Below are positions 39,995 to 41,712 of a DNA stretch of 64,000 bases, in pieces. Within the stretch, counting starts at the first letter, position 1. The number at the start of each line of letters is the position of its first letter. A program made the translations under genes and the position numbers. The stretch is taken from positions 1-64,000 of the forward strand of contig JAHJVW010000052.1 of assembly GCA_018828585.1 (NCBI GenBank). Direction: 5' to 3'. This DNA is from Bacteroidota bacterium (GTDB lineage Bacteria; Bacteroidota; Bacteroidia; Sphingobacteriales; Sphingobacteriaceae). The notes beneath the pieces were generated by a model that saw only the letters and a list, made by a program, of their open reading frames with translations, was not told where the DNA came from and did no database searches.

Positions 39995-40489
39995 TTAAGC
40001 TAATCTTTTTCTTAAATATTTATCCATCAGCATTAGAGCTGCAATGGTGTCAAACATTAAAAAACCATATAAAATAAAATTTTTAGATGCTGATGATAGA
40101 TTAATCTGACTTGTAAACTGATCTAAATTTAATTTTACTGGAAGCGTTGTAGATAATGACCAATCTATTCCTTTAAATACTATGGTCAAACATACCAAAA
40201 GCAGCACCCCAAACACGGCAGATATACCGTAGATAATTCTTTTATCAACCATGGCTTTCGCTGATAGTGGCTTGATCTGAAAAGCAACCTTATCCATCAC
40301 CTTGTTGGTGAAAGACATTGATGGCTCATCCAGCTCTATCAACTGAATATCCTTTTGAATAGCCAACAACTCCTGATATTTATCTTGATAAACAGGATCA
40401 TTAGCAATTAATTGCGAGATGGCCTCTTGCTCTTCTAAAGAGCTAAGACCATCTATATAATCCCAAATTCCTTCTTCTACCGTGTTCAT
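39995..40489 (-). CDS. anti-sigma factor-like single-pass membrane protein
   Basis: N-terminal DYIDGLSSLEEQEAISQLIANDPVYQDKYQEL pattern, TM segments; 4-nt overlap with the sigma gene. Confidence 0.75.
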   Translation of the reverse strand: MNTVEEGIWDYIDGLSSLEEQEAISQLIANDPVYQDKYQELLAIQKDIQLIELDEPSMSFTNKVMDKVAFQIKPLSAKAMVDKRIIYGISAVFGVLLLVCLTIVFKGIDWSLSTTLPVKLNLDQFTSQINLSSASKNFILYGFLMFDTIAALMLMDKYLRKRLA

Positions 40490-41064
40490 ATCAAATCTTT
40501 TACTTCTCCACCTAAAATAATTTCAAGTTGATTTTTCAACCTTTGTCTAGCCCTATGTAATTTAACCTTTATTGTATTTGCCTCCATTCCCATTATTTGG
40601 GATATTTCTTCTAATGATTGTTCTCCTAGATAAAACAGATTAATAATCGTAGCATCATCAGGTAATAAATTTTCTATCGCTTTATTAACGTAAAAGCTTC
40701 TTGATTTTCGTTCAACACTTAAATCATCTGCCAATCCGTAGCTTTCTAATTGAATAGCAGTTCCTTCATCATCTATAGAACTGACATCTAATCTCTTCTT
40801 ACGAAGATAAGTCATCGACGTGTTGTAAACAATAGTGTACAACCAAGTGCTAAATTTTGCTGTTCTTTGATAACTTGATAAAGAACGATAAGCTTTTACA
40901 AATGTATCTTGTGCTACTTCCTCAGCATCCTCGCGGCTACGAGTAAAACGCAAAGCTAAAGTAAAAACATAACGCTGATTCCTTTTCACCAATTCTGCAT
41001 AAGCCGATTGATTACCTGCCAGTACCGCATCTATAATTTCTATATCAGAATTCTTATTTTGCAT
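40486..41064 (-). CDS. ECF-type RNA polymerase sigma factor
   Basis: FTLALRFTRSREDAEEVAQDTFVKAYRSL, FSTWLYTIVYNTSMTYLRKKR, LGEQSLEEISQIMGMEANTIKVKLHRARQRLK; listed start 41067 is TTG, ATG at 41064 preferred. Confidence 0.94.
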   Translation of the reverse strand: MQNKNSDIEIIDAVLAGNQSAYAELVKRNQRYVFTLALRFTRSREDAEEVAQDTFVKAYRSLSSYQRTAKFSTWLYTIVYNTSMTYLRKKRLDVSSIDDEGTAIQLESYGLADDLSVERKSRSFYVNKAIENLLPDDATIINLFYLGEQSLEEISQIMGMEANTIKVKLHRARQRLKNQLEIILGGEVKDLI

Positions 41065-41073
41065 CAATGCCTT

Positions 41074-41106
41074 TATGACTACTACAGTTAGTTTTAGGTT
41101 ACACTA
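41074..41106 (-). promoter_or_regulatory. putative ECF promoter for the sigma operon
   Basis: Minus strand: TAGTGTAACCT (41106-41096) - N16 - GTCATA (41079-41074), 10 nt before the sigma ATG. Confidence 0.75.
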
Positions 41107-41249
41107 TTCTGCTAATTAAAGATAATTATTTTTTAGTCGTTGTTGATGGATGGAGTTTACGGTCTATCGCTTTTCAAAAAACAGTATACCATTAAGAAAA
41201 GATACCGTTTCAATCCTCAATAGAAAATCATTTCAAAAAAATTCTACTC

Positions 41250-41282
41250 TAGTGTAACCTGTTTAAAAATGAGGTAGTCATA
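41250..41282 (+). promoter_or_regulatory. putative ECF promoter for the DUF6249-like gene
   Basis: Plus strand: TAGTGTAACCT (41250-41260) - N16 - GTCATA (41277-41282); same boxes and spacing as the divergent copy. Confidence 0.75.
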
Positions 41283-41340
41283 GCTTACAAATCAGATGTA
41301 CTGATTACAAAAGATAGTTTAACAATTAAATTTTTATAAA

Positions 41341-41712
41341 ATGGATCAAAATAGCGTAGTTTTTAGTGTACCCATAGTAATGTTCATCTGTACCGCAGCG
41401 GTAATTTTTGGATTGAGGTACATGTCCAATAAGGAAAGAATGGCCATGATTGAAAAAGGCTTAGACCCTGGAGTTAAAAAAAGCCAACCACAACCTTATA
41501 CGGTATTAAAATGGGGTTTATTATTAATAGGTGCCGGCTTAGGACTATTCTTAGCCTTTACTTTAGACCATACCATATTTAAAGTAACGGCAGATGAGTG
41601 GGGAAATAACGATCGCAATGTGCCTATCTATTTCTCATTGATCTCCATCTTTGGGGGGTTGGGTTTATTTACTTCTTATCTTATCGAAAAGAAAGAAACC
41701 TTGAATAAATAG
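41341..41712 (+). CDS. DUF6249-like membrane protein
   Basis: FGLRYMSNKERMAMIEKGLDP pattern with three TM segments. Confidence 0.65.
   Translation: MDQNSVVFSVPIVMFICTAAVIFGLRYMSNKERMAMIEKGLDPGVKKSQPQPYTVLKWGLLLIGAGLGLFLAFTLDHTIFKVTADEWGNNDRNVPIYFSLISIFGGLGLFTSYLIEKKETLNK

Follow-up and report, generated by a model that had tools for sequence, protein, structure and literature searches.

A predicted autoregulated ECF sigma factor circuit with a divergent DUF6249 membrane protein gene as its dedicated target in Bacteroidota

Autoregulation through a -35 element of the AAC type is an established pattern for ECF sigma factors such as SigW, the regulon of which is large, and sigma-E of E. coli reads a -35 element of the sequence GGAACTT; we know of no DUF6249 partner of sigma-E. 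Among the Bacteroidota, SM6 of F. psychrophilum comprises an ECF -10 element with a CGT box, and the sigma/anti-sigma pair THC0290_1774/1773 is one of its targets (PMC9723704). EcfO-Reo and CirYZ of Bacteroidales are autoinduced ECF/anti-sigma pairs connected with envelope or gut stress, and they have few targets (PMC9308784, PMC13114119). An autoregulated ECF sigma factor with an adjacent membrane anti-sigma factor and a small target set is a kind of system that is already well known.

In this article we describe a locus with these general features in which the gene divergent from the sigma factor codes for a protein of the DUF6249 family. The analysed DNA (hereafter the window) consists of positions 1-64,000, forward strand, of contig JAHJVW010000052.1 of the assembly GCA_018828585.1, which belongs to a Bacteroidota bacterium of the Sphingobacteriaceae.

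The promoter pair and the flanking genes

A first-pass annotation of the window had proposed two divergent copies of an ECF-type promoter with equal 16-nt spacers in front of the sigma factor gene and its neighbour. Both copies were found, one on the minus and one on the plus strand, and the equality of the spacers was confirmed. The features of the locus are the following:

39995-40489, minus strand: membrane anti-sigma factor, 164 aa, overlapping the end of the sigma gene; its orthologue profile matches RsiW
40486-41064, minus strand: ECF sigma factor, 192 aa (MQNKNSD...); Pfam Sigma70_r2 7e-19, Sigma70_r4_2 4e-12
41062-41073, minus strand: predicted transcription start zone and sigma ATG (41064-41062)
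41074-41106, minus strand: ECF-type promoter of the sigma/anti-sigma operon; -35 TGTAACCT at 41103-41096, N16, -10 GTCATA at 41079-41074
41250-41282, plus strand: ECF-type promoter of the DUF6249 gene; -35 TGTAACCT at 41253-41260, N16, -10 GTCATA at 41277-41282
41287-41340, plus strand: predicted 5' leader of the DUF6249 mRNA, about 54 nt, with a hairpin AATCAG (41290-41295) / CTGATT (41301-41306)
41341-41712, plus strand: DUF6249 protein, 123 aa; Pfam DUF6249 (PF19762) 5.1e-23, 81.4 bits, cut-off 33

The pattern TGTAACCT-N14..18-GTCATA occurs twice in the 64 kb, compared with a mean of 0.01 and a maximum of 1 in 100 dinucleotide shuffles, and the two perfect matches of TGTAAC-N18-GTCATA in the whole 3.58-Mb genome are the window pair only. 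The first-pass annotation regarded an 11-nt upstream box, TAGTGTAACCT, as part of a candidate recognition motif; it is indeed identical in the two copies (41106-41096 on the minus and 41250-41260 on the plus strand), but its extent was overstated. In the nearest relative (L037, sigma factor 90% identical) TGTAACC is preceded by TCC and AAC instead of the TAG of the window, and because the bases 5' of TGTAACC differ already there, the conserved -35 core is TGTAACC(T). Judged from this comparison, the identity of the two boxes over 11 nt owes partly to luck. The -10 consensus, derived from about 190 promoters, is GTwGTC(A/T)TA, where the final A is invariant.

The sigma factor can be assigned to the ECF type (group IV), being a short protein with regions 2 and 4 above the cut-offs, whose gene is adjoined by that of a cognate anti-sigma factor and whose own operon is preceded by an AAC-containing -35 and a GTC-type -10 element. 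It scores 103 bits against the NCBIfam model TIGR02937 for ECF sigma70 factors (cut-off 42.9) and matches SigW in the PDB (5wuq_A, 7.5e-23); it stays under the curated cut-off of the SigW equivalog NF007223 (120.7 vs 209 bits). The anti-sigma factor gave no match when its single sequence was compared to Pfam, and a profile of 41 orthologues matched RsiW (5wuq_C) over positions 9-75 with an E value of 7.1e-7. An N-terminal anti-sigma domain is followed by a predicted transmembrane helix at 82-106, and the structural model (pLDDT 80.9) contains a second hydrophobic helix at the C-terminus. The zinc-binding H-x3-C-x2-C motif, which marks the ZAS subgroup only, is absent from the window protein and present in the distant homologues L194 and L200. 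Because of the RsiW profile match and the predicted helix 82-106, the protein is classified, on sequence and model, as an anti-sigma factor of class I type without zinc ligands.

The minus-strand -10 element ends 9 nt ahead of the sigma ATG (41064), so that a transcription start 6-9 nt downstream of it would give a leaderless or nearly leaderless mRNA. The distance from the beginning of TGTAAC to the first sigma codon is 32-45 nt in 92/92 promoters, which would leave a predicted leader of about 0-5 nt, conserved across the relatives. The TTG at 41067, given by the mechanical ORF list, is a less likely sigma start than the ATG at 41064. Leaderless mRNAs make up 5.5% in F. psychrophilum and are a minority in the phylum (PMC9723704).

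On the other side, the DUF6249 mRNA would carry a leader that begins with a hairpin. Such a 5'-terminal hairpin was found in 55 of the 72 Sphingobacteriaceae leaders, against 20 in shuffles (maximum 28 over 200), and the stems vary with the pairing kept (GAAC/GTTC, CACC/GGTG, GATC/GATC, AATCAG/CTGATT, TCGCC/GGCGA), which represents compensatory changes. It is absent in the Chitinophagaceae set, and the intergenic region had no match in an Rfam search. A stabilising stem-loop at the 5' end would be the simplest reading. The DUF6249 protein itself has three predicted membrane helices (model pLDDT 83.6), and across 168 sequences a charged segment, ERMAMIEKG.DP, is conserved between helices 1 and 2. 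A Foldseek comparison of the model to the PDB returned nothing under E 2, and its profile gave only weak membrane-helix matches among PDB sequences.

Not part of the first-pass annotation were the predicted lack or near-lack of a leader on the sigma mRNA, the 5' hairpin in the leader of DUF6249, and the likely lipoprotein target and phylum-wide spread described below.

Conservation and concerted change of the two promoters

The comparison with related genomes, which had been set beforehand as a refutation test, was run on 80 sigma orthologues from Pedobacter, Mucilaginibacter, Solitalea, Chitinophagaceae and others. In 75 of them the sigma gene is preceded by TGTAAC-N18-GTC, and in four of the five exceptions a one-base variant (CGTAACC or GGTAACC) takes its place. 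In the fifth, Pedobacter sp. BAL39 (L090), the DUF6249 gene lies directly ahead of the sigma gene on the same strand, and the sole motif precedes both. The proposal that the DUF6249-like gene is a target was likewise supported, as the motif precedes this gene in all 71 loci where it lies near the sigma gene. It is kept in all 17 cases where the start codons of DUF6249 and sigma are over 600 bp apart, and in one genome (G065), where the two genes are found on separate contigs, it is present at both. In Chitinophagaceae (L103, L105, L106, L107, L111-L114, L116) DUF6249 often has two tandem motif copies 66-102 bp apart.

The two genes are also inherited together. Of 301 genomes of the family, 159 contain both, none the sigma orthologue alone, five DUF6249 alone and 137 neither (thresholds E <= 1e-55 for sigma and E <= 1e-5 for DUF6249), that is, the sigma orthologue is present in 159 and DUF6249 in 164; Fisher's test gives 8e-81, a statistic which ignores shared ancestry. 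Among the five genomes with DUF6249 alone, the two examined have a DUF6249 gene with the motif, and the other three have weak DUF6249 matches only.

In the phylum as a whole DUF6249 was detected in 85 of 297 sampled genomes, and nearly all the loci sampled outside the family have an ECF sigma gene within about 1.5 kb, usually divergent, with an anti-sigma gene after it. Concerted change was assessed outside the family, in those 55 divergent loci that had the oriented pattern xxxAAC-N16..19-GTC on each side. In 54 of these the dinucleotide preceding AAC (GT, GA or GC) was identical on the two sides, against 34.5 +/- 2.5 expected and a maximum of 44 in 20,000 permutations. The drifted -35 boxes shared by the two sides include TGAAACATTC in L194, GGAAACC in L204 and L259, CGAAAC in L196 and GCAACCTT in L200. 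A generic two-box score was also higher within loci than after permutation (14.75 vs 13.59, maximum 14.09 in 5,000); this test caught reversed windows as well, and the anchored, oriented test on the 55 loci is the one relied on. Because the two promoters drift together, it is simplest to suppose that the same factor reads both.

Some further observations were made on these loci. In L192, L205 and L252 a -10 element of the type CATCCAAT or CATATAAT replaces GTCATA on both sides of the pair. Matches to DUF6249 also appeared in the control genomes of Caulobacter vibrioides and Bacteroides ihuae. L177 and L178 contain very high-scoring PF19762 domains in longer frames (about 250 aa) that were missed by the profile of the window's relatives and possibly represent another subfamily.

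The recognition helix of the sigma factor varies with the promoter. At position 167 of region 4.2 (window numbering) all 52 sigma factors with TGTAAC promoters have V or I, while all 14 with xGAAAC promoters have T, A or N, and residues 163 and 170 also differ between the two groups. By alignment to the sigma-E/-35 complex, we take residues 167 and 170 to be DNA-contacting positions. The 14 sigma factors with xGAAAC promoters cluster in the tree, hence they do not stand for 14 independent events, and the way in which residue 167 appears to track the -35 change is support, not proof.

Additional sites and the extent of the regulon

The genome-wide motif scan that had been proposed for defining the regulon was run and returned two or three promoters. 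In 22 whole genomes TGTAACCT-N16-GTCW gave 63 matches and its reversed control 15, so that each genome has about two more than the control. TGTAACC-N17-GTCNNA has exactly three matches in the genome of the window, namely the promoter pair and a site before the gene of a secreted DUF2807 (GIN) lipoprotein, and G065 and G084 have exactly the same three strict sites. Another family of the same class was represented by eight genomes, and in each of them the strict motif of that lineage matched exactly twice (the pair), with no control matches.

The lipoprotein gene (L117:717-1482, contig C5 of the same genome; DUF2807 3.7e-40) has TGTAACCT-N16-GTCCAA 46 nt upstream. Many other sigma-positive members of the family (G138, G065, G084, G021, G056 and others) have the site too, at 41-50 nt, and in two genomes that lack the sigma factor the DUF2807 gene is preceded by a TGTAACC/GTC site whose spacer is shorter by one base. 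Judging by its site, the lipoprotein gene is probably a third, unlinked target.

A related class of sites, TGTAACA-N17..18-GTC, precedes the gene of a MacB-type permease in sigma-positive and sigma-negative genomes, and in seven genomes a site of this class lies 5' of an ABC ATPase gene; in the genome of the window such sites are found at L299:1462-1530 and L003:1456-1530 (contigs C117 and C11). The MacB-like permease and the ABC ATPase were considered as further targets and set aside, as the permease site persists without this sigma factor. Since the MacB-type site occurs also in genomes devoid of this factor, the class likely belongs to the regulon of another ECF factor that would control an exporter. 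Because the class shares the TGTAAC and GTC cores and occurs independently of this sigma factor, it may be that similar sites are read by related ECF factors of one cell. TGTAACA 172-212 nt 5' of TolC-like genes was also set aside, being inside a conserved coding stretch of the opposite strand.

T9SS genes would be among the targets in regulation of the PorX-PorY-SigP type, where the sigma factor is SigP of P. gingivalis or an orthologue; no T9SS gene was among the strict matches of the window's genome. In F. psychrophilum a broader ECF motif is reported in front of an ECF sigma/anti-sigma pair and also of T9SS genes (PMC9723704), so the regulon may extend to degenerate sites.

The proposed circuit and its relation to known systems

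We regard it as highly probable that the locus constitutes an ECF sigma circuit which regulates itself and has a single dedicated target, the divergent DUF6249 gene, a confidence that applies to the circuit and not to the role of DUF6249. The sequence comparisons argue strongly for recognition of both promoters by the adjacent sigma factor. In the proposed mechanism the membrane anti-sigma factor (39995-40489) would hold the sigma factor until a signal releases it, and this signal would probably arise at the cell envelope, since an envelope location is predicted for the anti-sigma factor, for DUF6249 and for the lipoprotein. The free sigma factor with RNA polymerase would then read TGTAACC(T)-N16-GTCATA on both strands. 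From the minus copy the sigma and anti-sigma factors would be made from a nearly leaderless mRNA, thus positive feedback would be accompanied by the rebuilding of the brake; the plus copy would yield the inner-membrane protein DUF6249 from an mRNA with a 5' stem-loop, and in this genome a third, unlinked copy would drive the secreted DUF2807 (GIN) lipoprotein. DUF6249 is the obligatory partner of this sigma factor and most likely acts in the membrane, where it might either carry out the response as its effector or work with the anti-sigma factor in feedback. A more far-reaching and rather doubtful version of this model can also be formulated: the circuit would be a phylum-wide, essentially private loop, the ancient core regulon of which consists of its own operon and DUF6249; DUF6249 would be a second membrane-embedded regulator of sigma release rather than a downstream effector, and the helix and both promoters would have changed together several times with the pair left intact.

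Other explanations of the same data have to be weighed. That two AT-rich intergenic stretches resemble each other by chance could be argued from there being few sites in a single genome and from nothing more; the shuffles and the conservation in dozens of genomes speak against it, the latter has already refuted it, and its probability is practically nil. It is also very improbable that the sites are symmetrically placed operators of a DNA-binding regulator and not promoters. Two identical elements in opposite orientation are indeed often seen with divergent operators, but the element is non-palindromic, its two boxes have a fixed spacing and the GTC core typical of an ECF -10, it keeps a fixed distance of 32-45 nt to the sigma start codon, and it is single where the genes lie apart.

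The remaining alternatives accept the sites as real ECF promoters. They might be read by more than one of the cell's ECF sigma factors and represent a shared output instead of a private loop, as the presence of the TGTAACA class at the MacB-type permease gene with or without this sigma factor, its occurrence at the ABC ATPase gene in seven genomes, and the suggestion of one motif common to several ECF factors in F. psychrophilum (PMC9723704) would allow. We consider this unlikely, given that the sigma factor never occurs without DUF6249, that both promoters drift in concert, that the drift is linked to a recognition-helix residue of the adjacent sigma factor, and that in the MacB class another base follows TGTAAC. 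Alternatively, DUF6249 could be only the best-conserved member of a large regulon with degenerate sites, for example at secretion or envelope genes. SM6 of F. psychrophilum, which spans T9SS genes, band-7 proteins and a sigma/anti-sigma pair (PMC9723704), and the DUF2807 lipoprotein gene as an already third strict target are in agreement with such a regulon; the 2-3 strict sites per genome, near what the known targets explain (63 vs 15 in 22 genomes, exactly 2 in each of eight), are not, and it appears to us somewhat improbable.

The freely available journal papers searched contained neither the link between DUF6249 and the sigma factor, nor its fixity across the phylum, nor the concerted drift of the promoters, though the main ECF classification may list the neighbourhood; a literal text search for TGTAAC in papers found no occurrence. 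With the autoregulated circuit as the preferred reading, DUF6249, a family of unknown membrane proteins, gains a regulator of its own, through which its role can be tested, and for a Bacteroidota ECF group the promoter is defined and the core regulon is very small. Furthermore, the co-drifting promoters with the matching helix changes form a natural series for studying shifts of ECF specificity, and orthogonal promoter pairs are supplied for a phylum poor in genetic parts.

Compared to the previously described systems, SigW-RsiW of Bacillus subtilis (PDB 5wuq) is the best PDB sequence match for both proteins, and it likewise has an ECF sigma factor with the gene of a class I type anti-sigma factor just downstream. 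The window sigma factor is, however, below the NCBIfam SigW cut-off, its anti-sigma factor has no zinc-ligand motif, and unlike SigW it has 2-3 strict sites and DUF6249 as partner. With E. coli sigma-E (PDB 1or7) the locus shares the -35/-10 logic and the GTC core of the -10 element, but its -35 element is TGTAACC; the anti-sigma factor was not RseA-like in any test run here. SM6 of F. psychrophilum comes from the same phylum and also has an ECF -10 element, with a CGT box, and a sigma/anti-sigma pair as target, a likeness that leaves orthology aside; its reported targets include T9SS genes and DUF6249 is not mentioned (PMC9723704). For EcfO-Reo and CirYZ no DUF6249 is reported, the targets are NigD lipoproteins or a Spy chaperone, and Reo is a large envelope-spanning anti-sigma factor; nevertheless, like the locus described here, they are autoinduced ECF/anti-sigma pairs with a small target set.
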